A DNA stretch of 64,000 nt from an uncultured Trueperaceae bacterium (GCA_937873495.1 CALMXZ010000011.1:62001-126000); one strand, 5' to 3'; shown: positions 5,063 to 17,726, numbered from the stretch's first letter. The notes: a model not told the origin generated them from the letters alone. Made by a program: numbers and translations.

Positions 5063-5857
5063 GTGTTGTGGCTGCAGGAACTGACCGGTAACGAGAGCGG
5101 CTGGTCGGTATGGGACCTGCGCTACCTGGGGTTCGCGACGTGGGGTCCGACGCGGGCGGTGGCCTTGAGCCGCGCGCCGGAACGCCTGGCGAGCCATAAG
5201 CGCTGGCTGGCCGCTCACGACCTGGACGTCCGGCCGGCGCTCGCGAGCCACGGCCGCCACCTCGCCGGCGACGAACCGGCCGCAGCGCAACCGCATGCGC
5301 CAGGGCCGACCGCGGCGGAATCGCATGCGGTACGCCCGACCGCCGCCGAGCCTCGCATAGCCGAGAGCATCCGCGGCAACGAAGTACTCTTCGAGCACGA
5401 CCGCCGGCCAGCCTCCCGCGCCGAGATAGAGCTCTGCGCGACCCTCCTGGCCTGCACGCGCGCCGACCTGTTGGACGCGGTGACCGGCCTACCGGACGAG
5501 CTGCTCGACTGGGACCCGCCCTACGCGGCGTACCTCTCCTGGGCGCGCTGGCGCACCGTCCGCGAGATCCTGACGCACGTCGCGCAGACCGAGGTGGGTT
5601 ACTACCTGCCCGCCATCGGCTACGCGGCGCCGGACGCCGAAACGTTCGCCTCGCTCCGCTGGCTTGAGCAGTTGCGGCTCGGCCGCGAGCACACGCTCGC
5701 TCGCCTCGCCGACCTCGCCGAGGCCGACGACAGGCTGCGGCTCACCGAGGGCGACGAGGGCTGGTCGGTGCGCAAGGTCCTACGCCGCCTCGTCTGGCAT
5801 GAGCTGCTGCACCTGAAGAGCATCAGGCGGATCGTCGCGGCCTTCCCGGGTCGTTGA
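5063..5857 (+). CDS. DinB-family protein with N-terminal HicB-like domain
   Basis: The 264-residue protein starts at a GTG (TTG at 5066 is also possible). Residues ~1-55 look like a small HicB-like alpha/beta domain (GWSVWDLRYLGFATWG...RAPERL). A degenerate alanine/proline linker with repeated PTAAE words covers ~75-105. Residues ~110-264 form a DinB helical bundle with His in REILTHVAQTE and in WHELLHLKSI as likely metal ligands. HicB-like/DinB fusions are known in several GC-rich phyla, but their substrates are not. The 3' end overlaps the convergent ROK kinase gene by 35 nt. Confidence 0.72.
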   Translation: MLWLQELTGNESGWSVWDLRYLGFATWGPTRAVALSRAPERLASHKRWLAAHDLDVRPALASHGRHLAGDEPAAAQPHAPGPTAAESHAVRPTAAEPRIAESIRGNEVLFEHDRRPASRAEIELCATLLACTRADLLDAVTGLPDELLDWDPPYAAYLSWARWRTVREILTHVAQTEVGYYLPAIGYAAPDAETFASLRWLEQLRLGREHTLARLADLAEADDRLRLTEGDEGWSVRKVLRRLVWHELLHLKSIRRIVAAFPGR

Positions 5858-6701
5858 GCGCCCACGCCGCCGCCCCCACCAACCCCGCGGACTGGCCGAG
5901 CTCCGCCGCGAGCACAGGGACGCGCACCAGCTCGTCCACCGCGAGGAGCGCCGTCTCGAGAGCGCTCCTGAACACGGGGTTCAGCCCGACGCCGCCGCCG
6001 AGGACGACGACCTCAGGGTCGAGGAGGTACTTCACGTCCACGAGGGCTCCAGCCAGGGCCGTCGCGGCATCGGCCAGGAGACCGCGCGCCCACGGCTGCC
6101 GCTCCTCGGCCGCCGCGACGAGCTCGCGGGCCGTCGTGGCGTGACCGAACTCGGCCGCCCTGCGCGTGAGCGCCGTACCGGAGGACACCCGCTCCAGGGC
6201 GCCGCCGCCGACGTGACCGAGGTGGCCGGCCAGGCCGGTGGCGCCCTGCCAGAGCCGATCGCCGATCACGAAGCCTGCGCCGACGCCGGTCGACACGGTG
6301 ACGAAGAAGGACGAACCGCGCCCGCGCCCTGCGCCGTGCAACGCCTCGCCGTAGGCAGCGGCCTGGGCGTCGTTGAGGGCGGTCGTCGGCAGCCCGAACG
6401 TCCGCTCGAGCCTGGCGACGAGCGGGAAGTCGTCCCAGCCCGGCAGGAGCTCACGGCTCACGGCCCGCACCTTGCCGCCACGCACGAGGCCGGCGCAGGC
6501 CACGCCCAGCGCCGTCGGCGGCGCGGCGGAGCGCGCCAGGAGGGGCGCCGCCGCGCCCCTGAGCGCTTCCACGACGGCCTCAGGCCCGTCTGCCGCCGGG
6601 GTATCGGTCAGCTCCTGGTCGACGATCTCGGCCCCCCGCACGAGCGCGACGGCCAGCTTGGTGCCGCCGACGTCGATGGCGAGTACGGGTGCTAGTGCCA
6701 C
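5823..6701 (-). CDS. ROK-family sugar kinase, probable N-acetylmannosamine kinase
   Basis: The 292-residue protein has the ROK phosphate-binding start (AIDVGGTKLAVAL), the catalytic aspartate in LNDAQAAAYGEA, and glycine motifs TGVGAGFV and VVLGGGVG. The usual zinc-binding CxCGxxGCxE loop is missing: the region between GHLGHVGGG and ERVSSGTAL is shortened and has no cysteine. The start is a GTG 3 nt after the RpiR stop, with AGGAG upstream, so regulator and kinase form one operon. With nanE in the facing operon, phosphorylation of ManNAc to ManNAc-6-P is the simplest role; glucokinase or another hexosamine kinase is possible. Confidence 0.8.
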   Translation of the reverse strand: MALAPVLAIDVGGTKLAVALVRGAEIVDQELTDTPAADGPEAVVEALRGAAAPLLARSAAPPTALGVACAGLVRGGKVRAVSRELLPGWDDFPLVARLERTFGLPTTALNDAQAAAYGEALHGAGRGRGSSFFVTVSTGVGAGFVIGDRLWQGATGLAGHLGHVGGGALERVSSGTALTRRAAEFGHATTARELVAAAEERQPWARGLLADAATALAGALVDVKYLLDPEVVVLGGGVGLNPVFRSALETALLAVDELVRVPVLAAELGQSAGLVGAAAWALNDPGRPRRSA

Positions 6702-6704
6702 GGT

Positions 6705-7529
6705 TCACATGCTCCTGTCCGCGACGACCTGGGCCGTGCGCCGCACGCCCTCCTTGAACTCGTCGTCCGCTTCCGCCATGAGCCGCACGAGCCCCTCCAA
6801 CACGAGGAGCTGGCCGATCTTGGCGAAGACGTCGCCGCCGGTCAGCGGAGACTCGGGTGGCGAGGCGAACAGGCTGCGGTCGGCGACCTTGGCGAGCGGG
6901 CTCTTGAACCTGTTCGTGACGGCGACGGTGAAGGCGCCCGCCGCCTTGGCCACCTTGACGGCCTGGAGCGTGTCGATGGTGGAGCCCGAGCTGGAGATGC
7001 CGATGGCGACGGCCGTCGGCGAGAGGTTGGAGGCGCTCATGGAGCCGAGGTGCATATCCGTGTACGCCTGGGCCGTCAGCCCGAAGCGCAGGAGCTTGTA
7101 AGCGAAGTACTGCGCCACGACCCCCGAGGCGCCGACCCCGTAGACGTCGACGCGGGTCGCGGACGCCAGGCGCGCGGCCACGGTCGCGAAGACGTCCCGC
7201 TCGAAGAGCGTGGCGGTCTCGGCGAGCGTGCCGGCGGCGTGGTGGGCGAGCTTGGCCAGGAGGCTCGTCTCGCCGTTCGGCTCCTCCATGCGGCTCGGCG
7301 TGCCCGACTCGACGGCGAGCGTCAGCTTGAACTCCTGGAACCCGGAGAAGCCGAGGTCCTGGCAGAAGCGGATGATGCTGCCCTCGCTGCTGCGCGCCGC
7401 CTCGGCGAGCTCGGTGACGCTGTGGTAGATGACCGCGTCGGGGTGCTCGAGCACGTACTCGGCCACGCGCCGCAGCACGGGGCTGAGGTCGGGGAGCGAG
7501 GCGCGGAGCTTGGTCAACAGGCGCGACAT
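6705..7529 (-). CDS. RpiR-family transcriptional regulator with SIS sugar-phosphate domain
   Basis: Residues ~1-77 form the RpiR helix-turn-helix domain (VAEYVLEHPDAVIYHSVTELAEAARSSEGSIIRFCQDLGF). Residues ~115-265 form a SIS domain with the glycine/serine-rich phosphosugar-binding segments GVGASG and GISSSGSTIDT. Such proteins sense sugar phosphates such as GlcNAc-6-P, ManNAc-6-P or MurNAc-6-P and usually repress catabolic operons. It is divergent from the discoidin/ABC/NanE operon, with an inverted repeat between the two, and is in the same operon as the ROK kinase. I infer that it represses the forward operon until an amino-sugar phosphate accumulates. Confidence 0.9.
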   Translation of the reverse strand: MSRLLTKLRASLPDLSPVLRRVAEYVLEHPDAVIYHSVTELAEAARSSEGSIIRFCQDLGFSGFQEFKLTLAVESGTPSRMEEPNGETSLLAKLAHHAAGTLAETATLFERDVFATVAARLASATRVDVYGVGASGVVAQYFAYKLLRFGLTAQAYTDMHLGSMSASNLSPTAVAIGISSSGSTIDTLQAVKVAKAAGAFTVAVTNRFKSPLAKVADRSLFASPPESPLTGGDVFAKIGQLLVLEGLVRLMAEADDEFKEGVRRTAQVVADRSM

Positions 7530-7571
7530 GAGGCAGGCGATGCGTGCAGCCCTGGGCGGGAGGTCCGACCC

Positions 7572-7600
7572 TTGACAGAGCTACCCTCCGCACCTAGCAT
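7572..7600 (+). promoter_or_regulatory. Sigma-70-type promoter of the amino-sugar operon
   Basis: TTGACA (7572-7577) is a perfect -35 box. It is followed after exactly 17 nt by TAGCAT (7595-7600), a good -10. Transcription would begin near 7607 and read into the discoidin gene at 7713, giving a ~105-nt leader. This is one of the two best -35/-10 pairs in the window. Confidence 0.75.
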
Positions 7601-7614
7601 GCCATAACGAGTGT

Positions 7615-7645
7615 GGCTCAATATCAAGTTCGCGAATTTTGAGCC
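7615..7645. promoter_or_regulatory. Probable RpiR operator (inverted repeat)
   Basis: GGCTCAA at 7615-7621 is mirrored exactly by TTGAGCC at 7639-7645 with 17 nt between. A further half-site GCTCAAT follows at 7648-7654. It begins ~8 nt after the predicted transcription start of the forward operon, where a bound protein would block RNA polymerase. The spacing fits a dimer contacting two successive turns. Confidence 0.6.
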
Positions 7646-7712
7646 TCGCTCAATCTGGGATGCGGCGACCAGCTACTGCAGGCGGTCGGTCGGCACCCAT
7701 CAGGAGGACCGC

Positions 7713-8798
7713 ATGCATCTCCGGCTGATCAGGACCCTCACCGCGACGCTGACCCTCTCCGTGGCGCTCTTCGGTGCGCTCGCCTTCGCCCAATCCGCGG
7801 ACTTCGACGTCGCGTCAGGCAAGGTCGTCACCTCCAGCCGCCCGGCCGCCGAGTCGTACCCGGACGGCGACGGGCTCAAGTTGACCGACGGCGCCTACGC
7901 CTTCTCGTGGGCCGACATGGTCGGCTTCGAGGGCACCGAGCCCGTCACCCTGACCGTCGACCTCGGCGCCGTCTACGACACCATCAGCTACGTCGCGCTC
8001 AAGGTCATGCGCTCCGACGGTTCCGCCGTCGGCCTCCCGACCGCGATCGTCTCCGTCTCGGAGGACGGCCTCCTCTGGGAAGACCTCGGTCTGGCCAACG
8101 TCGCGCTCGAGGGCGTGATCGCGAACGACACGGTCGGCACCCTCGTCTGGGCCGATGAGGCGTGGGCGGGCTACGGGCAGTTCGTCCGCGTCGAACTCCT
8201 TCCCACGAGCGGCTGGGCGATGGTCGCCGAGCTCCAGGTAGGCAACGGCTCCATCCCGGTCGACCGGTTCCCCGTCGGCTCGGTGAACGCGCCCACCACC
8301 GCCGAAGCCGTGAACGTGTCCCTCGGTAAGTCCTACTCCCTCCAGCCCGCCGCCTCCGAGGCCTACCCCGATCCCGACGGCACCAAGCTGACGGACGGCT
8401 CGTACGCCTACGCGTGGGGCGACATGGTCGGCATCGCGGACGCCACCTTCAACCCTGTCGTCGTGATCGACCTCGGCGAACACGTCGACGGCATCACGCG
8501 CGTCGCCGGTCTGTTCATGCGCTCGTTCGCCTCCGCCGTCAACCTGCCGTACAGCATCCTCGTGTCCGTGTCCGACGACGGCGAGAACTTCCAGATCGTC
8601 GGCCTCGCGGCCAAGACCGCCCCCTCCCCCGCGATGAACGAGCTGATCAACTCCGTCTACTGGCAAGACCTGCAAGAGCCCGTCGGCGGCCGCTACGTCA
8701 AGCTGCAGGTTCGGCAGCGCACCGGCTGGCTCATGCTGGCCGAGGTCGTGGTGCAGACGGGAGCAGCCGACCCGGAGGTTCAGGAAGCAGCGGAGTAG
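7713..8798 (+). CDS. Secreted protein with two discoidin (F5/8 type C)-like domains
   Basis: The start is the ATG at 7713 with AGGAGG 5 nt upstream. The 361-residue product has a signal peptide ending AFA|Q (residue ~26). Two discoidin-like jelly-roll domains follow at ~30-160 and ~205-350. They share the words KLTDGAYAFSWADMVG / KLTDGSYAYAWGDMVG, an acidic VDLG strand, a MRS segment and SVSEDG / SVSDDG. Discoidin domains bind carbohydrates at cell surfaces. As first gene of the sugar ABC operon it may capture the glycan in the periplasm or at the surface. No catalytic domain or membrane anchor is seen. Confidence 0.8.
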   Translation: MHLRLIRTLTATLTLSVALFGALAFAQSADFDVASGKVVTSSRPAAESYPDGDGLKLTDGAYAFSWADMVGFEGTEPVTLTVDLGAVYDTISYVALKVMRSDGSAVGLPTAIVSVSEDGLLWEDLGLANVALEGVIANDTVGTLVWADEAWAGYGQFVRVELLPTSGWAMVAELQVGNGSIPVDRFPVGSVNAPTTAEAVNVSLGKSYSLQPAASEAYPDPDGTKLTDGSYAYAWGDMVGIADATFNPVVVIDLGEHVDGITRVAGLFMRSFASAVNLPYSILVSVSDDGENFQIVGLAAKTAPSPAMNELINSVYWQDLQEPVGGRYVKLQVRQRTGWLMLAEVVVQTGAADPEVQEAAE

Positions 8799-10295
8799 AT
8801 GACGAAGCGCGACCAACTGCGTAACGCCGTGCTCACCGGGGCCATCGCCCTGGTGAGCACGGCGTTCGCCCAGACGGAGCCCGTCCTCTCCGGCACGTTC
8901 GTGCAGTTCAACTACCAGCTCGCCACGCTCGGCGCGGACGGCTGGCGCGCCGAACTCGCCGACATGCGGGCGGTCGGCTTCGACACGCTGATCGTGCAGT
9001 ACTCCCGCTACGGCGAAGTGAGCTACTTCCCGACGGCGACGACCGTCCCGGGCGCGCCGCCGCCGGCCTCCACGCTGCCGCCGAACGAAGCCATCGCCAC
9101 CCTCGCCTGGCAGGCCGACGCGCCGGCCCAGGCGACCCACCTGCGCATCGTCGTCGCGCCCAACAGCAAAGAGTGGACGATGATCCCCGAGGTCCGCGTG
9201 CTCGACCAGGGCCGCAACGTCGTGGCCGGCCGCGGCTACGCGCTGACACCGGCCCCGTCCGGCACCTACCTCGACCCCAACGCCGCGACGGGCGGGAAGC
9301 TGACCGACGGCAGCGCCAACTTCGCCTGGCAGGACATGGTCGGCTGGCAGCTGCCCGGCGGCGAGATCGCCGTCGACTTCGACCTCGGCGAGCCGACGGC
9401 CTTCGACCGGGTCGAGGTCCAGTTCATGCGCTCAGACGTCTCGGCCGTCGAACTGCCCGCCTCGATCGCGATATCCGTCTCCGGCGACGGCTCGCACTAC
9501 CTGAGCCTCGGCCGACCGGCCGGTTGGAACGACGCCACCACCACCGGGGCCGACATGCGGTCGTGGGACCCCATCGGCGAGCTGCTCACCGCCGCGGAGG
9601 ACGCCGGCTTCCAGGTCTGGCTCGGCCTCGCCCTCGACCCGGCGTACTGGGAAGGCAAGTTCGACCCGACCGCCTCCGCGGCCGGCAACACGGCGCTGAT
9701 GCTCCAACTCGAGGAGCTCTACGGCGCCTCGCCCGCCCTTGTCGGCTACTACCTGCCCGAGGAGATCGACGACCGGAGCTTCGTGACGCCGACCGCCCAC
9801 GAGGCGATGACGACATACCTGGCCGCCATGGCGGACGCCGCGCACACGCAGGTAGGGCGCCCCGTGATGGTGGCGCCGTACTTCGGCATGCGGCCGGACG
9901 GCGCGGCGTACGCCGCCTGGTGGGACGCCACGCTGGCCAAGGCCGAGCTGGACGTCATCGCCATGCAAGACGGCGTCGGCACGCGGCGGACGACCGCTGA
10001 GGAGGGCGTGCCCGTCTACCGGGCCCTCAAGGCCGTGACCGACGCGCGCGGCGTCGCCCTCTGGTCCGACTTGGAGGTCTTCGAGCAGACGCACGGCTGG
10101 CCGGTCGACGACCTCGCCTGGCAGGCCACGAGCGCGAAGATCGCGACGGTGCGGAACCAACTCGAGCTGGAGGCGCCGTTCGTGGCGAAGTTCGTGGCGT
10201 TCGCCTTCCCCGACCACATGAGCCCGCGCGCCGGGGGAGCGGCGGCCCGCCTCTACCAGGACTACCTCGCGTACCTGAAGGAGCTCGACCCGTGA
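8799..10295 (+). CDS. Secreted DUF4434 (glycosidase-like barrel) protein with inserted discoidin-like domain
   Basis: The ATG directly follows the stop of the preceding gene. The 498-residue product has a signal peptide (TAFA|Q, ~24). Residues ~28-70 are the first strand and helix of a TIM-barrel of the DUF4434 type (GTFVQFNYQL...GFDTLIVQYSRYG). A discoidin-like domain then interrupts at ~95-240, with KLTDGSANFAWQDMVG matching the neighbour. The barrel resumes at ~250 (LLTAAEDAGFQVWLGLAL, GYYLPEEIDD, MVAPYFGM, VIAMQDGVG, ALWSDLEVFE). DUF4434 resembles glycoside hydrolases; acidic residues at barrel strand ends (PEE, QDG, DLE) are candidates for catalysis. Activity is unproven. Confidence 0.78.
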   Translation: MTKRDQLRNAVLTGAIALVSTAFAQTEPVLSGTFVQFNYQLATLGADGWRAELADMRAVGFDTLIVQYSRYGEVSYFPTATTVPGAPPPASTLPPNEAIATLAWQADAPAQATHLRIVVAPNSKEWTMIPEVRVLDQGRNVVAGRGYALTPAPSGTYLDPNAATGGKLTDGSANFAWQDMVGWQLPGGEIAVDFDLGEPTAFDRVEVQFMRSDVSAVELPASIAISVSGDGSHYLSLGRPAGWNDATTTGADMRSWDPIGELLTAAEDAGFQVWLGLALDPAYWEGKFDPTASAAGNTALMLQLEELYGASPALVGYYLPEEIDDRSFVTPTAHEAMTTYLAAMADAAHTQVGRPVMVAPYFGMRPDGAAYAAWWDATLAKAELDVIAMQDGVGTRRTTAEEGVPVYRALKAVTDARGVALWSDLEVFEQTHGWPVDDLAWQATSAKIATVRNQLELEAPFVAKFVAFAFPDHMSPRAGGAAARLYQDYLAYLKELDP

Positions 10296-11596
10296 GGAGC
10301 GTGACCATGCCGTCCACCAGTCGCCCGACCCGTCGGCCCCGCCGAAGCCGCTTCGCCGGCGCCTGGCTCGCGTTGCTCCTCCTCGCTTCCGCGGCGTCCG
10401 CCCAGACCGAGATCACGTTCTGGCAGGCCTGGGGCGGCTCCGAGGGGCAGGCCATGCAGGCGCTCGTGGACGAGTTCAACGCCAGCCAGTCCGAGGTGAG
10501 GGTGCGTTCGTCGTTCGTGCCCATCGGCGACGGCGAGCGCATCCTCGCCTCGCTCGCCGGCGGGGCGCCCGCCGACCTCGTGACCGTCTGGGACTGGATG
10601 GTCGTGCCGCTCGGCTACGGCGGCGCGCTCGCCGACCTCACGGCCGACCTGAGCGCCGCCGGCGTTGGCCAGGACGACTACCTGCCCGGCATCTGGGAGT
10701 ACGGCACCTACCAGGGTGCGAAGTACGGCGTGCCGACCACCATCAACGTCTACGCCTTCATGTGGAACAAGGACGTCTTCGCCGCGGCCGGCCTCGACCC
10801 CGAAGCGCCCCCACGCACCATCGCGGAGCTGGACGTCCTCACCGAGCAGCTCACGACCGTCGACCCGCGCGGCAACATGCGCCGCCTGGGCTTCTACCCG
10901 AATGTGACGGCCATCTACTGCTACGCGTTCGGCGGGCAGCTCTACGACCCGACCACGCTCGAGGTCACCCTCGACCACCCAGGCAACGTGGCCGCCTTCG
11001 AGTGGCTCGCCGCCTACTACAAGAAGTACGACATCGCGAAGATCCGCCGCTTCCAGGCGGGCTGGGGCGACATGGCCAGCCCCTTCAACCCCTTCTACCG
11101 CGGGCAGATCGCTATGCAGGAGGGTGGGCAGTGGGAGGTGGCGTTCACGCGCGAGTACGCCCCAGACCTGAACTGGGGGGTCACGACCTTCCCGGCGCCG
11201 GAAGGGGGGAGGACGGACGTCACGCCGGTGCAGAGCTCCTTCTGGGTGATACCGGCCCAGGCGACGCACAAGGCCGAGGCGACGCGCTTCCTCCTGTGGT
11301 TGAGCGCGCCCGAGCAGTCGGCGCGCTTCGCAGCTGCCCTCGCCAACATCCCGCCGCGGCGCGACGCGCTGGCCATGCCCGCCTTCGCGGACACCATCAC
11401 GCCCCAGATGCAGACGTACATCGACATGCTGCTGACCGGCTACGTCTACACGCCGCCCGGCCTCCCCGTCGGCCTGTACCTGAGCGATCAGCTCAACCAG
11501 GCGCTCGCCGCCGTCCAGGACGGCACGGTGTCGGCCCGCGAGGCGCTCGAGACGGCCCAACGTAACGTGCAGCGCGAGCTGGAGAAGTACCGCTGA
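10292..11596 (+). CDS. Sugar ABC transporter substrate-binding protein (UgpB/MalE type)
   Basis: The ~434-residue protein is a family-1 extracellular solute-binding protein. After the signal peptide (ASAASA|Q) it opens with TEITFWQAWGGSEGQAMQALVDEFN, the usual first strand of oligosaccharide binders, and later has YGVPTTINVYAFMWNKDVF. There is no lipobox, so it should be free in a periplasm. The GTG at 10292 overlaps the previous stop and has AAGGAG upstream; an ATG at 10307 with GAGGAG is equally plausible. It forms an importer with the two following permeases. The ligand is inferred to be an amino-sugar glycan from NanE in the operon. Confidence 0.92.
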   Translation: MRSVTMPSTSRPTRRPRRSRFAGAWLALLLLASAASAQTEITFWQAWGGSEGQAMQALVDEFNASQSEVRVRSSFVPIGDGERILASLAGGAPADLVTVWDWMVVPLGYGGALADLTADLSAAGVGQDDYLPGIWEYGTYQGAKYGVPTTINVYAFMWNKDVFAAAGLDPEAPPRTIAELDVLTEQLTTVDPRGNMRRLGFYPNVTAIYCYAFGGQLYDPTTLEVTLDHPGNVAAFEWLAAYYKKYDIAKIRRFQAGWGDMASPFNPFYRGQIAMQEGGQWEVAFTREYAPDLNWGVTTFPAPEGGRTDVTPVQSSFWVIPAQATHKAEATRFLLWLSAPEQSARFAAALANIPPRRDALAMPAFADTITPQMQTYIDMLLTGYVYTPPGLPVGLYLSDQLNQALAAVQDGTVSAREALETAQRNVQRELEKYR

Positions 11597-11644
11597 TGAA
11601 CCCCTCCCCTGCCGGAGGCGCCGGCGCGGATCGGTCGGTCGGGC

Positions 11645-12574
11645 ATGCGTGGGAGCCGGCACCGCGCCGGACGGCCGAACGTGCTTAGGCACATGACCCG
11701 CCGGCAGCGCCGGGACCTCTGGTTGGGGCTGGCGTTCGTATCGCCGTGGCTCATCGGGTTCGTGGTCTTCACCGTCTACCCCGTGCTCGCCTCGCTCTAC
11801 TTCTCGTTCACCGACTACAACGTCGTCTCCGCGCCCAGGTGGATAGGCACGCGCAACTACACGGACTTGATCCGGGACCCGCTCTTCGGCAAGACGCTCT
11901 ACAACACGCTCTACCTGGCCGCGATCGGCATCCCGTTCTCGCTCGGCCTGAGCCTGGTCATCGCGATGCTGCTCAACAACAAGGTGCGCCTGCAGGGGCT
12001 CTTCCGCACGGTGTACTTCCTGCCGAGCGTCGTGCCGGCCGTGGCGGCCGCGCTCCTGTGGCGCTGGTTCCTCAACCCCGACTACGGCCCCGTCAACGAG
12101 TTCCTGTGGCAGCTCGGCATCAACGGCCCCGGTTGGCTCGCCGATCCGGCCTGGTCGAAGCCAGCCCTCATCCTGGCGAGCCTGTGGGGCGTCGGCGGCT
12201 CGATGGTCATCTACCTGGCCGGGCTCCAGAACGTCCCGGTGGCGCTCTACGAGGCCGCGGACCTCGACGGGGCGAGCAGGTGGCAGCGCTTCCGCTTCGT
12301 GACGCTCCCGATGCTCTCCCCCGTCATCCTCTTCAACCTCATCATGGGCATCATCACGTCGTTCCAGGCCTTCACGAACATCTACATCATGACGGGCGGC
12401 GGGCCGTCCAACTCGACGCTCGTCTACGCTCTCTACCTCTACCAGAACGCCTTCCAGTTCTTCCGGATGGGCTACGCCTCGGCCATGGCGTGGGTGCTGC
12501 TCGCGATCACTGCCGTCGCCCTCGTCGGGGTGTTCCGCACCTCCGGCTGGGTCTACTACGAGGCGCGGAGCTGA
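11645..12574 (+). CDS. Sugar ABC transporter permease (UgpA/MalF type)
   Basis: Six hydrophobic segments are visible. The EAA loop LYEAADLDGASRWQRFRFVTLPML sits in the expected place near residue 205 for docking an ATPase. The length (309, or 293 from the ATG at 11693) fits UgpA-type subunits. The first ATG lacks a clear ribosome site, so the start is uncertain. The stop overlaps the ATG of the partner permease by one base (TGATG), showing translational coupling. Confidence 0.9.
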   Translation: MRGSRHRAGRPNVLRHMTRRQRRDLWLGLAFVSPWLIGFVVFTVYPVLASLYFSFTDYNVVSAPRWIGTRNYTDLIRDPLFGKTLYNTLYLAAIGIPFSLGLSLVIAMLLNNKVRLQGLFRTVYFLPSVVPAVAAALLWRWFLNPDYGPVNEFLWQLGINGPGWLADPAWSKPALILASLWGVGGSMVIYLAGLQNVPVALYEAADLDGASRWQRFRFVTLPMLSPVILFNLIMGIITSFQAFTNIYIMTGGGPSNSTLVYALYLYQNAFQFFRMGYASAMAWVLLAITAVALVGVFRTSGWVYYEARS

Positions 12575-13404
12575 TGACGCGCCGCCGTAGCCTTTGGAGT
12601 GTAGCCATCTACGTCGTGCTCGTAGCGGGCGCGGTCTTCTTCCTCACGCCCTTCGTCTGGATGATCTCCACGTCGCTGAAGACCGATGCGCAGGTCTTCG
12701 CCATCCCGCCGGAGTGGGTGCCTGCGCCCGTGATGTGGTCGAACTACTGGCGCCTCATGACGGAGATCCCGTTCCTGCGCTACCTCGCCAACACGGTGTT
12801 CGTGACCGTTACGAGCGTCGCGTTCTACGTCGCCTCATCGGCCGTCGTGGCGTACGGCTTCTCGCGCATCAGGTGGCCGGGCCGCGAGGTCCTCTTCTAC
12901 TGCCTGCTGGCGACGATGGTCCTCCCGCCCCAGGTGACGCTCATCCCGCAGTTCGTGATGTTCCAGAAGCTCGGGTGGGTCGGCACGTTCCTGCCGCTCA
13001 TCGTGCCGGCGCTGACGGGCAGCGCCTTCGCCGTGTTCCTGCTGCGGCAGTTCTACTCCGCCATCCCGAACGACATCTCCGACTCCGCGCGGATCGACGG
13101 GGCGAGCGAGTGGCAGATCTTCGTGCGCATCGTCCTGCCGCTCGCGAAGCCCGCGCTCGCCACGGCGTCGCTGTTCATATTCATCTGGACGTGGACCGAC
13201 TTCCTGAACCCCCTCATCTATCTGACCGACGACCGCCTCTACACGCTCGCCATCGGTCTGCAGCAGCTTGCCAGCACGCGCGCCGCCGCCTGGCCGTTGC
13301 TCATGGCCGGTTCGCTCCTCATGAGCGTGCCGATCATCCTCCTGTTCTTCTTCGCTCAGAAGACGTTCATCGCGGGCGTCTCGACGGCGGCCGTGAAGGG
13401 TTGA
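12574..13404 (+). CDS. Sugar ABC transporter permease (UgpE/MalG type)
   Basis: The 276-residue inner-membrane protein begins with a hydrophobic helix (IYVVLVAGAVFFLTPFVWM) and has the MalG-type landmark SLKTDAQVF. Its EAA loop is SDSARIDGASEWQIFVRIVLPL. It completes the membrane part of the importer. No ATPase gene occurs anywhere in this operon, so a shared MsiK/UgpC-type ATPase encoded elsewhere must energise it, as is common for this importer class. The TGATG junction couples its translation to the preceding permease. Confidence 0.92.
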   Translation: MTRRRSLWSVAIYVVLVAGAVFFLTPFVWMISTSLKTDAQVFAIPPEWVPAPVMWSNYWRLMTEIPFLRYLANTVFVTVTSVAFYVASSAVVAYGFSRIRWPGREVLFYCLLATMVLPPQVTLIPQFVMFQKLGWVGTFLPLIVPALTGSAFAVFLLRQFYSAIPNDISDSARIDGASEWQIFVRIVLPLAKPALATASLFIFIWTWTDFLNPLIYLTDDRLYTLAIGLQQLASTRAAAWPLLMAGSLLMSVPIILLFFFAQKTFIAGVSTAAVKG

Positions 13405-13438
13405 CGGCCGAAGCGCCGCCGCACATGAGCCGACGCCC

Positions 13439-15115
13439 ATGAAGGGATCAACGACCATCGACTCTCTCCTGCTCATCCCCCTAGACGAGCGCCCCATCAA
13501 CGCCGCCTACCCCCGCCTCCTGACGGACGCGCTCGGTTGGGACCTGGAGTGTCCGACGGACCTGTTGGGCGGCCGCAAGACGCCGGCGGACGTGGCCGGG
13601 CTGGCCACCTGGCTGCTCGCCGCCGCCGGCGGCGCCGGCGGCGCCGGGCGACCGCTCGGCGCCGTCATCGCGCTCGACACCCTCGCCTGGGGCGGGCTGA
13701 TCCCTTCGCGCCAGTCCGGCAACGACCTCGGCGCCGCCCTGCAGCGCCTCGACGTGCTGCGGCGCGTGCGGGAGCTGGCTCCAGGCCTGCCCATCCTCGC
13801 GTTCAGCAGCATCCAGCGCGTTAGCCGCGAGGACGACGACGCGGAGGAGCCCGGCTACTACCGCTCGTATGGGCGCGCCATCTTCAGGCGCTCGGTGCTG
13901 GAGCACCGCGCCGCGGCCGCGGCGCTGACCGCCGAGGAGGAGCGCGAGCTCGCCCGCCTGCGTTCCGACCTGCCCGCCGACGTCTGGCAGGACCAGCTCG
14001 AGATCAGGCAGCGCACGCTCGCGGTCAACCTGGCCGCGCTCGACCTCGTGGCGGACGGTGTGGTCGACACGCTCGTACTCAACCAGGACGACACCGCCGA
14101 GTGGGGCCTCAACGTCATGAACCGGCACCGGCTCGAGGCGGAGGTGCGCCGCCGTGGCTTGGACGACCGCGTGCTCGTCTACCCCGGCGCAGACGAGGTC
14201 GCTCAAGCTTTGATAGCGCGCCTCGCCTCCCGGGTGCTCGGGCGCAGGGCCCGCGTGAGCGCGTTCTACGCGTCGCGTCGCGGCGCCGACGTTCGGACGG
14301 CGTACGAGGACCGGCCGCTCGGCGACCTCATCACCGTCCACCTCCGCGCCGCCGGCGCGGTGCAGGCGCCGCACGGCACGCCCGTCGACCTGTGGTTGGG
14401 CGTCAACAGCCCGTCGACGGCGCAGGGCCAGGGCGGGGTGTCGCACGCCCTGGCCTACGCGGCTGGGCACCCTGGGGCGTTGACGGATGAGGAGCTGAGC
14501 TGGCTCGCCGCCTCCGAGGCCCCCGTGGACGGGCTCGATCGGTCGCTGCCCGCCTTCCGCGATAGCCTCAAGGCGTTGCTGGACGGCTCGAGGCTGGTGA
14601 GCGTGGCCGACGTCGCCCACGTCAACGGTGCGGACGACCTGCTCATGACCGGGCTGGCCGCCGACGGCGCCCTGCCGTGGCTCGTCGGTTACGGGGGGTG
14701 GAACACGGCCGGCAACGCCCTCGGCTCCGCCGTGACGCTCGGCTGCCTCGCCGCCCTCGGCGCGAGCCGAAGCGACCTCGAACTGGCCGTCGCGGCACGG
14801 CTCATCGACGACTGGCTCTACCAGGCGCGCGTGCGCACGCGGCTCCTGTTGCAACCGGGGCTCAAGCCGCTCGGGCTGGGCGGGTTCGTGCCCGACGCGC
14901 GGCAGGGCGCCGTAGCGGCCGAGGCGCGCGTGGCGCTTGACGCGGAGCTGCGCGAGTTCGGCCTGCCGTACCGGGTCACGCGCCTCGCGTTCCCGTGGCA
15001 GCGCGTCTTCGAGATCGACTACGCCATCGAACGTGCCGGCGAGCTCGCCGGCGTCGAGGCGGGCGGCGAGCGCCGCGCCGAGGCCGGTACTGAGCGCTCG
15101 GGAGGAGCGGCGTGA
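13439..15115 (+). CDS. DUF4127 family protein
   Basis: The 558-residue protein matches the DUF4127 pattern: it opens with LLIPLDERPINAAYPRLL and has GGLIPSR, FSSIQRVSREDDD, LNQDDTAEWGLN, DEVAQALIARL and YGGWNTAGNALG. No signal peptide or membrane segment is seen, so it acts in the cytoplasm. The family has no established function. Clusters of conserved acidic and glycine residues (DERP, QDDTAEWG) suggest an enzyme. It sits between a sugar importer and NanE and overlaps the nanE GTG by 4 nt. I infer that it acts on the imported sugar, for example cleaving it to a ManNAc moiety. Confidence 0.82.
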   Translation: MKGSTTIDSLLLIPLDERPINAAYPRLLTDALGWDLECPTDLLGGRKTPADVAGLATWLLAAAGGAGGAGRPLGAVIALDTLAWGGLIPSRQSGNDLGAALQRLDVLRRVRELAPGLPILAFSSIQRVSREDDDAEEPGYYRSYGRAIFRRSVLEHRAAAAALTAEEERELARLRSDLPADVWQDQLEIRQRTLAVNLAALDLVADGVVDTLVLNQDDTAEWGLNVMNRHRLEAEVRRRGLDDRVLVYPGADEVAQALIARLASRVLGRRARVSAFYASRRGADVRTAYEDRPLGDLITVHLRAAGAVQAPHGTPVDLWLGVNSPSTAQGQGGVSHALAYAAGHPGALTDEELSWLAASEAPVDGLDRSLPAFRDSLKALLDGSRLVSVADVAHVNGADDLLMTGLAADGALPWLVGYGGWNTAGNALGSAVTLGCLAALGASRSDLELAVAARLIDDWLYQARVRTRLLLQPGLKPLGLGGFVPDARQGAVAAEARVALDAELREFGLPYRVTRLAFPWQRVFEIDYAIERAGELAGVEAGGERRAEAGTERSGGAA

Positions 15116-15837
15116 GCGCCGTGTCGGTCTCGCCGACCGGCCGTCCGCGTAAGCGCGCCGTGATCGAGGCGCTGCGCGGCGGCCTCGTCATCTCGTGCCA
15201 GGCGCCGGAAGGCTCGCCGCTGCGCCACCCGAGTCACATGGCGGCCATGGCGGAGGCGGCCGAGCTGGCGGGAGCCGTGGGAATCCGGGCGGACGGCCCG
15301 GCGTTCGTGGCGGCCATCCGGCAGCGCGTCGCCATCCCGATCATCGGCATCGACAAGCGCCCTGACATCGACCCGGTCGCCTACATCACGCCGAGCTTCG
15401 CCTCCGTCGAGGCGCTGGTCGCCGCCGGCGCCGACCTGGTCGCCGTGGACGCGACGCTGCGGCCGCGGACCGGCGAGAACGTGCCGACCGCGGCAGAACT
15501 CATCCGGCTGGTCCGCGAGGCGTTCGCCGATCTGCCGATCATGGCCGACGTGTCCAGCGTCGCGGAAGGCGTTGCCGCCGCGGCCGCCGGGGCCGACCTG
15601 GTCGCCACCACGCTCTCGGGCTACACGAACGGCGCGCCGCCGCCGAACGGTCCGGACGTAGAGCTGGTCGCCGGCTTGGTGGCGGCGCAAGACCGGCCCG
15701 TCGTGGCCGAGGGGCGCTACGGCACGCCGGAGCAGGTCAAGGCCGCGTTCGCGGTCGGGGCGCACGCGGTGGTTGTCGGCACGGCCATCACCGACACGTT
15801 CGCGCTCGCCAAGCGGTTCATCGCCGGCGTGAGGTGA
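15112..15837 (+). CDS. nanE: N-acetylmannosamine-6-phosphate 2-epimerase
   Basis: The 241-residue TIM-barrel protein has the NanE hallmarks: an initial GGLVISCQAPEGSPL strand, the lysine in IIGIDKRP, the catalytic-type acidic segment VVAEGRYGTPEQV, and a terminal phosphate-binding GAHAVVVGTAIT. It converts ManNAc-6-P to GlcNAc-6-P. The GTG start overlaps the DUF4127 stop, with GGAGGAG just upstream. With the ROK kinase it would complete the ManNAc-to-GlcNAc-6-P steps; NagA/NagB and sialate lyase genes are not in the window. Confidence 0.92.
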   Translation: MSAVSVSPTGRPRKRAVIEALRGGLVISCQAPEGSPLRHPSHMAAMAEAAELAGAVGIRADGPAFVAAIRQRVAIPIIGIDKRPDIDPVAYITPSFASVEALVAAGADLVAVDATLRPRTGENVPTAAELIRLVREAFADLPIMADVSSVAEGVAAAAAGADLVATTLSGYTNGAPPPNGPDVELVAGLVAAQDRPVVAEGRYGTPEQVKAAFAVGAHAVVVGTAITDTFALAKRFIAGVR

Positions 15838-15840
15838 CGC

Positions 15841-16638
15841 TCAGTCGGGTCGCTCCAGGCTCGCGACGGGGATGACCATCGGCGTCTCGGACACGGGGTC
15901 GACGACGATGCGCGCTTCGAGGCCGAACGTGTGCGCGAGCAGCTCGACCGTCAGGACGTCGGCCGGCGCGCCGGTGGCCACGACCGCGCCGTCCTTCATG
16001 ACGACGAGGTGGTCCGCGTAGCGTGCGGCCTGGTTGAGGTCGTGGAGCACCATCACGAGCGTGCGGCGCTCCTCGCGGTTGAGCTTGCGGCAGAGCTCGA
16101 GCACGTCCAGCTGATGGGCGATGTCTAGGTAGGTGGTCGGCTCGTCGAGGAGCATGAGGGGCGTCTCCTGCGCCAACACCAGTGCCAGCCACACGCGCTG
16201 GCGCTGACCGCCGGAGAGCTCGTCGACCTCGCGGTCAGCCAGAGCGGTGACGCGCGTCAGCCGCATCGCCGCCTGCACGGCCGCCTCGTCCTCGACCGAC
16301 CACTGCCTGAACAGCTCCTGGTGGGGGAAACGCCCCCGCGCGATCAGGTCGGCCACCGTGATGCCGAACGGCGCCGTCATGGCCTGCGGCAGCAGCCCAA
16401 GGCGCCTTGCGACCTCCTTGGTGCCGTACCGGCGGATGTCCTTGCCGTCGAGCACGACGTTGCCGCTCTTGGGCGCCAGTAGGCGCGCCAGCGCTCGCAG
16501 CAACGTGGTCTTGCCGCACGCGTTCGGGCCGATGATGACCGTGATGCGGCCCGGCGGCACGACGACGGTGACGTCGCGCGCGACCGTCGTCCCGTCGTAC
16601 GCCAGCGTCAGGCCTTGAGCGGCCAGGAGTTCGCTCAT
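15841..16638 (-). CDS. Iron-siderophore ABC transporter ATPase (FepC type)
   Basis: The 265-residue ATPase has Walker A GPNACGKTTLL, signature LSGGQRQR, Walker B PLMLLDEPT, and the LHDLNQAARYADH switch-histidine region typical of FecE/FepC proteins. It energises import through the two FecCD-type permeases encoded just upstream. Its ATG overlaps the permease stop by 4 nt. This is the last gene of the minus-strand operon that starts at 19673. Its 3' end converges on nanE with only 3 nt between, so no terminator is visible there. Confidence 0.95.
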   Translation of the reverse strand: MSELLAAQGLTLAYDGTTVARDVTVVVPPGRITVIIGPNACGKTTLLRALARLLAPKSGNVVLDGKDIRRYGTKEVARRLGLLPQAMTAPFGITVADLIARGRFPHQELFRQWSVEDEAAVQAAMRLTRVTALADREVDELSGGQRQRVWLALVLAQETPLMLLDEPTTYLDIAHQLDVLELCRKLNREERRTLVMVLHDLNQAARYADHLVVMKDGAVVATGAPADVLTVELLAHTFGLEARIVVDPVSETPMVIPVASLERPD

Positions 16639-17726
16639 AGGTTCTTGCCGCGCGTGAGCAGCCAGATGAGGTACAGGCCGCCGACGATGCCCGTCATGCG
16701 TCCGATCGGCAGGTTGGCGCCCCACGGGGCGAGCTGGGTGAGGAGGTCGGCGGCCACGAGCAGGCAGGCGCCCATCGCGGCGGCACCGACCACCGGGAGG
16801 TCGGAACGGCCGCCGAGGCGGACCACGAGCTGCGGCGCGGCCAGCGCGACGAACGCGATGGGCCCCGTGGCGGCCGTGGCGAGGGCGGCCAGGAGGACGG
16901 CGCCGAACACGCTCAGCAGCCTCGTGCGTTCGACCGTCACGCCCAGCTGCTTGGCCAGGTCGTCGCCCATCTCCATGAGCGAGAGGCGCCTGGCCGCGAG
17001 CGCGAGTAGCGGCACGACGACCACCGCCCCGAGCATGACCGGGTAGACGTGGGTCCACTTGCGCGCGTTCAGCGAGCCGGCGAGCCACAGGTTGGCGCTC
17101 ACGGCGTCGTCGAGCGCGCCCCTGACGAGCAGCAGCCCGTTCAGGGCGCCGAGCACGGCACCGACCCCGATGCCGGTGAGCAGCAGGCGGTAGCCGCCCA
17201 CCATGCCGCCCTTGAGCGCCAGGACGTAGACGACCGCGGCGGTGAGCACTCCACCTATCACGGCGGCGGCCGCCACCTGGTTGGGGCCGCCGCCGAAGAG
17301 GACGATCTGGGAGATGGCCCCCGTAGCGGCGCCGGTCGTGAAACCGATGACGTCGGGCGAGCCGAGGGCGTTGCGCGACACGGACTGGAACACGGCGCCG
17401 GACGCCCCGAGCGCCGCCCCGGCGAAGACGCCGGCCAGCACGCGTGGCAGGCGGATGGTCATGACGATGCGCTCGCCGACGCCGCCGTCTCCCCTGCCGA
17501 CGAGGATGGCGAAGACGTCGGCGAGCTCCACGCGGAAGGTGCCGATCGTCATGGCGAGCGCGGCGACCAGGGCGGAGACGGCGAACAGCACGAGCACGAC
17601 CGCCGCCTGCCTTGGCCGCCAGGCGAACGACACACCGCGCCGCCGCCACACCGCCCAGCCCGCGGGCGTCCAGCCTCCGCCGGCGGCCCGGCCCGCGCGC
17701 GGCGGGTGAGCGACCGGCGCGCTCAC
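16635..17726 (-). CDS. Iron-siderophore ABC transporter permease (FepG/FecD type)
   Basis: The 363-residue FecCD-family permease starts at a GTG whose last two bases overlap the upstream stop (GTGA). It shows the ~10 hydrophobic segments of the family, the SRNALGSPDVIGFTTGA segment and the GPIAFVALAAPQL motif that marks the ATPase-contact loop. The N-terminal ~40 residues are unusually long and rich in Pro/Gly/Ala. It pairs with the permease at 17723-18724 as a heterodimer. Confidence 0.93.
   Translation of the reverse strand: MSAPVAHPPRAGRAAGGGWTPAGWAVWRRRGVSFAWRPRQAAVVLVLFAVSALVAALAMTIGTFRVELADVFAILVGRGDGGVGERIVMTIRLPRVLAGVFAGAALGASGAVFQSVSRNALGSPDVIGFTTGAATGAISQIVLFGGGPNQVAAAAVIGGVLTAAVVYVLALKGGMVGGYRLLLTGIGVGAVLGALNGLLLVRGALDDAVSANLWLAGSLNARKWTHVYPVMLGAVVVVPLLALAARRLSLMEMGDDLAKQLGVTVERTRLLSVFGAVLLAALATAATGPIAFVALAAPQLVVRLGGRSDLPVVGAAAMGACLLVAADLLTQLAPWGANLPIGRMTGIVGGLYLIWLLTRGKNL

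Follow-up and report, generated by a model that had tools for sequence, protein, structure and literature searches.

The catabolism of N-acetylmannosamine (ManNAc) is usually equated with that of sialic acid, and the nan clusters of Gram-positive bacteria accordingly combine a SatABC-type importer, the lyase NanA, the kinase NanK, the epimerase NanE and an RpiR regulator. The operon described here lies in a 64,000-nucleotide stretch of DNA from an uncultured Trueperaceae bacterium, referred to as the window. It has in common with the Gram-positive nan clusters an RpiR regulator, a ROK kinase, NanE and an SBP_bac_1 two-permease importer without an ATPase of its own; however, it is without NanA (in the operon or, over the cut-off, in the genome) and without an operon sialidase, and carries a DUF4127 and a DUF4434 protein instead. 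N-acetylglucosamine (nag) clusters, with NagA, NagB and a NagZ-type GH3, have the same end pathway, whereas the window operon enters it at ManNAc via NanE and has a ManNAc-type kinase. Taken as a whole, our best explanation is that the operon scavenges a ManNAc-containing glycan other than sialic acid, a proposal whose chances we consider evenly poised. A sequence-only reading of this DNA had assigned the release of ManNAc from such a glycan to DUF4434 and DUF4127 jointly. That interpretation is supported in part, the portion concerning DUF4127 holding and the portion concerning DUF4434 less so, and its core claim should shift from an operon with both proteins to DUF4127 as the uncharacterized but conserved member of a ManNAc cluster that is widespread and lacks NanA.

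All nine genes named in the earlier reading were found by Pfam where it had placed them. The reverse strand encodes a ROK-family sugar kinase, probably a ManNAc kinase without the usual zinc-binding cysteines (5823-6701; ROK, E = 7e-52), and an RpiR-family regulator (6705-7529; HTH_6, E = 9e-21; phosphosugar-sensing SIS domain, E = 5e-17). On the forward strand, overlapping or abutting genes (7713-15837) encode a secreted candidate glycan binder with two modules of the discoidin (F5/8) type (7713-8798; F5_F8_type_C, E = 6e-11); a secreted, TIM-barrel glycosidase-like DUF4434 protein with an inserted discoidin module (8799-10295; E = 9e-43); the SBP_bac_1 solute-binding protein of an ABC importer (10292-11596; E = 7e-33) with permease 1 (11645-12574; BPD_transp_1, E = 2e-19) and permease 2 (12574-13404); an uncharacterized, cytoplasmic DUF4127 protein, a putative enzyme (13439-15115; E = 7e-120); and NanE, N-acetylmannosamine-6-phosphate 2-epimerase (15112-15837; PF04131, E = 2e-51; NCBIfam match over cut-off). 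Permease 2 is read in the frame MTRRRSLW... inside ORF 11746-13404 and has homologs in relatives at 516-577 bits; ORF 12594-13442, considered for the second permease, was rejected as a shadow of this gene. The RpiR-ROK pair does not face the forward operon, as had been thought, but is divergent from it, back to back, so that one promoter region is common to both. This control region (7530-7712, no strand) holds a strong TTGACA-17-TAGCAT promoter, repeated GCTCAAT half-sites and an AGGAGG before the discoidin start; promoter and half-sites are kept in an alignment with four relatives, and the half-sites are a candidate RpiR operator. Signal-peptide-like N-termini occur in the binding, discoidin and DUF4434 proteins, and no such start was seen in the sequences of the DUF4127, NanE or ROK proteins. 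The gene set is not a product of chance, since four further members of the family (L033, L035, L036 and L037, the contig edge of L036 falling inside DUF4127, ahead of NanE) have these nine genes in the same order. Tail to tail with NanE lies a gene for a FecE-like iron-siderophore ABC ATPase (15841-17649, reverse strand), unrelated to the ManNAc operon and adjoined in L033 and L035 by more genes of apparently the same transporter.

The amino-sugar reading of the system, which had been made from the sequence alone, is strengthened by closer inspection of its enzymes. NanE scored 249.6 bits against a cut-off of 189 (NF002231), and its nearest solved relatives are NanE proteins (4utt/4utw), with which the Lys of GIDKRP and the Glu of AEGRYGTP align; we take these two residues to be catalytic. 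The six nearest solved relatives of the ROK kinase are all ManNAc kinases (2aa4, the best at E = 4e-36, 6jdc, 6jdb, 6jdo, 6jda and 6jdh), and its best NCBIfam matches are also ManNAc kinases, below their equivalog cut-offs (NF003461, 193 of 283 bits; NF047821, 174 of 450 bits); the zinc-binding cysteine motif is absent from its sequence. Elsewhere in the genome, NagA (231 bits; cut-off 225.65) and NagB (274 bits; cut-off 236.9) are present. As far as protein families go, these four proteins complete a predicted route that leads from ManNAc through ManNAc-6-P and GlcNAc-6-P on to fructose-6-P, and the step that supplies ManNAc is the one missing. We consider it probable that the operon does carry ManNAc to GlcNAc-6-P, although the sub-threshold scores of the ROK kinase count against the explanation as a whole. 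So does the binding protein, whose nearest solved sequence is 4r9f "MBP1" (E = 4e-50), which we take to be a binder of manno-oligosaccharides and not of amino sugars; the likeness is weakly consistent with a manno-configured ligand. No ATPase gene occurs among the operon genes.

In sialic-acid operons the missing step belongs to NanA, which is not among the genes of the window operon. No NanA over the TIGR00683 cut-off was found in the 111 genomes of the phylum (Deinococcota) or in 40 cluster-bearing genomes from other lineages. The cut-off is strict, only E. coli passing it among 14 controls, and therefore genuine but distant NanAs could be missed in genomes, though not within clusters. A NanA/DapA-type gene occurs in only 1 of 100 loci, several kilobases away.

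The protein found in its stead is DUF4127, for which AlphaFold gave a confident model (pLDDT 92.6, pTM 0.92). Sequence profiles detected no relative in the PDB (none at E ≤ 1), and Foldseek detected no PDB fold relative (best E = 8.8e-3; highest TM-scores ~0.2 by query length), so that no match to a solved protein places DUF4127 in a known enzyme family. The sole significant match in Foldseek's viral library (A0A346TNQ6, TM 0.75) is nameless and yields no function, no fusions were seen among 104 gene models, and a search of a literature collection returned no mention of DUF4127 (or of DUF4434, PF13552, PF14488 or N-acetylmannosaminidase), just as a combined search for the pathway gave no result. 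Thirteen positions are invariant in 59 sequences (D16, R18, R91, R127, R190, D218, D252, E290, D391, N396, N422, R466 and R522), a pattern as expected of an enzyme, and ~29 polar or aromatic residues, mostly where predicted strands terminate on their carboxy side, are kept in at least 90% of them. Judging from these sequences, the richness in conserved arginine suggests an anionic substrate. The six invariant arginines (R18, R91, R127, R190, R466 and R522) would also suit a replacement sialic-acid (nonulosonate) lyase, DUF4127 standing at NanA's place in a layout of RpiR, ROK, ATPase-less SBP_bac_1 importer and NanE that is otherwise that of Gram-positive nan clusters. We regard such a swap as quite improbable, given that a Pfam search of the operon genes found no sialidase, that the hydrolases recurring in related loci (GH3, GH38 and GHL10) are not sialidases, and that the nearest solved binding protein is no sialic-acid binder.

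To place DUF4127 in context, 80 DUF4127-bearing loci outside the source genome were collected from a public genome set by DUF4127 alignment, followed by gene calling and clustering. A home-made codon-usage caller was used, so small genes and some starts in these loci may be wrong, and since loci end at contig edges, absences there are weak evidence. Results showed NanE in 41 of the 80 loci, on the same strand as DUF4127 in 39 of these and as its immediate neighbor in 12, a ROK gene in 38, an importer in ~42, RpiR in 23, a GHL10-type gene in 19 and GH38 in 16. The NanE-linked loci are spread over seven phyla (Bacillota, Chloroflexota, Deinococcota, Pseudomonadota, Actinomycetota, Armatimonadota and Cyanobacteriota), some of them metagenome bins whose taxon names are possibly wrong. 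In three loci of Opitutaceae (Verrucomicrobiota), NanE is replaced directly upstream of DUF4127 by AGE, N-acylglucosamine 2-epimerase (score 618.6 bits, over the cut-off of 600; 621 bits with the solved 2gz6). AGE belongs to a different, non-homologous family and its substrate is unphosphorylated; however, it epimerizes the ManNAc/GlcNAc pair, as the NanE route does, and thus points to the same sugar. The weightiest single piece of evidence for ManNAc is that two unrelated epimerases acting on one sugar pair stand beside DUF4127. Moreover, within the phylum NanE occurs in 26 of 31 genomes with a long DUF4127 and in 7 of 80 without it (Fisher p = 3e-14, kinship ignored). DUF4127 is therefore tied to the ManNAc/NanE pathway. 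The sequence-only reading had staked its case on finding DUF4127 or DUF4434 beside NanE or ROK genes in other genomes; for DUF4127 this is borne out by the counts above, and for DUF4434 it is borne out more weakly, as described below.

Nag-type genes join the cluster as well: in Thermaceae it additionally has a NagA that passes the cut-off, along with a NagB-II-like SIS protein, and another lineage of Trueperaceae has DUF4127 directly behind a gene for a GH3 beta-N-acetylhexosaminidase that also passes its cut-off. A reading in which the operon is an ordinary one for sugar use, with passengers unrelated to it and an accidental link between DUF4127 and NanE, would accord with the short-form DUF4127 genes that also occur in housekeeping contexts in Thermus. 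This reading has almost no chance of being correct and is already contradicted by the survey, since the linkage persists in seven named phyla with altered gene orders, with an alternative epimerase in an eighth, and NanE would by rough estimate be expected in well under 1% of random 20-kb stretches, compared with about half of the loci observed.

Two features of the survey weigh against our best explanation. Neither NanE, AGE nor the NanE-like protein c16 is near DUF4127 in 30 of the 80 loci, many of which are truncated, and the commonest named direct same-strand neighbor of DUF4127 is the FAD oxidoreductase PF12831 (18 cases; 37 of the 80 loci in all), which is absent from the window operon and unexplained by our model. 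Gfo/Idh/MocA oxidoreductases (14 of 80) and xylose-isomerase-like TIM barrels (7 of 80) also recur. DUF4127 could accordingly act with the FAD oxidoreductase, by oxidation-assisted cleavage, on a sugar or aglycone that accompanies ManNAc; NanE and ROK would then process a different product, and the window operon would have lost the oxidoreductase or use another one. This alternative is also favored by a second long DUF4127 in the source genome (G000:C8, locus L032, 19 kb), whose cluster has no NanE and contains an ABC importer, LacI, PF12831, c16, a xylose-isomerase-like TIM barrel and a Gfo/Idh/MocA oxidoreductase. Nevertheless, DUF4127, NanE and ROK occur together with no oxidoreductase nearby in the window operon and in many Chloroflexota and Armatimonadota loci, and we judge this alternative rather unlikely.

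A set similar to that of L032 recurs in Nonomuraea and Jiangella. The c16 protein (~225 aa, no Pfam match; L032:5138-5839, reverse strand) occupies NanE's place in clusters of DUF4127 and FAD oxidoreductase and is also present in L034, L110, L116, L121, L125, L129 and L132. A pairwise hhalign comparison with NanE gave a probability of 95; since phosphate-binding TIM barrels resemble one another, we regard kinship with NanE as suggestive and do not claim it.

The DUF4434 protein proved less of an unknown than had been supposed. Foldseek led to 4h41 (E = 6e-11) and then to GH10, GH5 and GH26, and its sequence also leads to 4h41. These matches indicate a (beta/alpha)8 barrel, as in clan GH-A, in a model with an overall pLDDT of only 57.5, its barrel core being better. 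E322 follows strand 4 (314-321) and E426 follows strand 7 (420-425) of the model, the positions of the glutamates of clan GH-A, and both residues are kept in L058, L144 and 4h41; they are candidate catalytic residues. The DUF4434 relative 4h41 (BT_0435) thus resembles the window protein in its TIM barrel and paired glutamates, while the window protein differs by an inserted discoidin module, which follows strand 2 and matches in type the two mutually related modules of the upstream protein; the name of 4h41, "putative alpha-L-fucosidase," is the depositors' label and not an assayed activity. It had been claimed that the island contains no sialidase, sialate lyase or ManNAc-releasing glycosidase. 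For sialidase and NanA this agrees with the operon's gene content, but for the glycosidase it is too strong, given that DUF4434 has a recognizable TIM-barrel glycosidase fold.

The distribution of DUF4434 is narrow. It exceeds the cut-off in six of the 111 genomes of the phylum and belongs to this operon in five, which marks it as lineage-specific, and it was found in DUF4127-type clusters only in five genomes of the source family and at one Chloroflexota locus. Elsewhere GHL10, GH3 or GH38 genes accompany DUF4127 in its place. DUF4434 is thus a lineage-restricted accessory that, as a candidate glycosidase by its model, would form a glycan-cutting front end, a part that GHL10, GH3 or GH38 proteins may play in other lineages. 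The Chloroflexota locus, a NanE-DUF4127-importer cluster, encodes a single protein with three tandem DUF4434 domains (L058:15176-18193).

Considering these data together, we propose that the discoidin protein would bind the glycan outside the cell, where the discoidin-bearing DUF4434 protein, presumably a retaining glycosidase, would cut it. A small oligosaccharide would enter through the ABC importer, powered by an ATPase borrowed from elsewhere in the genome, and in the cytoplasm DUF4127 would free ManNAc from it, taking the place that NanA has in sialic-acid operons. The remaining reactions are those of the families: the ROK kinase would form ManNAc-6-P, NanE would convert it to GlcNAc-6-P, and NagA and NagB, encoded elsewhere in the genome, would lead on to fructose-6-P. 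RpiR would regulate the two divergent transcripts through the promoter region between them and probably sense a phosphosugar. That DUF4127 is the ManNAc-supplying step is plausible, if somewhat short of an even prospect. The broader suggestion, that it is a new-fold enzyme family of at least eight phyla whose substrate is a fragment of an anionic glycan other than sialic acid, and whose release of ManNAc from it opens a general pathway of ManNAc scavenging in NanA's stead, we put forward tentatively.

One anionic glycan of this kind is described: S-layer bacteria possess 4,6-pyruvyl-beta-ManNAc polymers, and in Thermus thermophilus mutation of csaB leads to loss of the pyruvate (PMC6801904, PMC6030368). 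The operon might then recycle the cell's own S-layer anchor, a pyruvylated beta-ManNAc secondary cell-wall polymer. CsaB is indeed present in the source genome (242 bits) and exceeds the cut-off in 98 of the 111 genomes of the phylum, but relatives without DUF4127 carry it too, so that its presence is not specific, and outside the phylum only 9 of 40 cluster-bearing genomes have CsaB over the cut-off. We therefore rejected self-recycling as a general function, and for the window operon it has a slim chance at best. Scavenging of the same polymer from other bacteria may occur.

A widespread cluster in which epimerases of ManNAc-6-P or ManNAc are coupled to an enzyme family not yet studied, and in which NanA is not detected, implies that ManNAc has a further natural source and an undescribed entry reaction. 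DUF4127, which occurs in Deinococcota, Bacillota, Chloroflexota and Actinomycetota, among others, and in culturable genera such as Meiothermus, Calidithermus and Fictibacillus, thereby gains a testable function. If our proposal is true, annotation pipelines are warned against taking NanE and ROK together as a sign of sialic-acid use. An uncharacterized cluster of Bacillaceae (L065, L089, L096, L102, L106, L108 and related loci) comprises an esterase, a binding protein, NanE, RpiR, ROK, two permeases, GH38 and DUF4127, often with a second ROK, a FAD oxidoreductase and GHL10 added. Finally, most Thermaceae-type genomes contain a short form of DUF4127 (~400-440 aa; e.g., L046:3999-5234, L049:9345-10664 and L050:9524-10738), in some cases with a signal-peptide-like start and housekeeping surroundings, which may be an exported paralog with another role.
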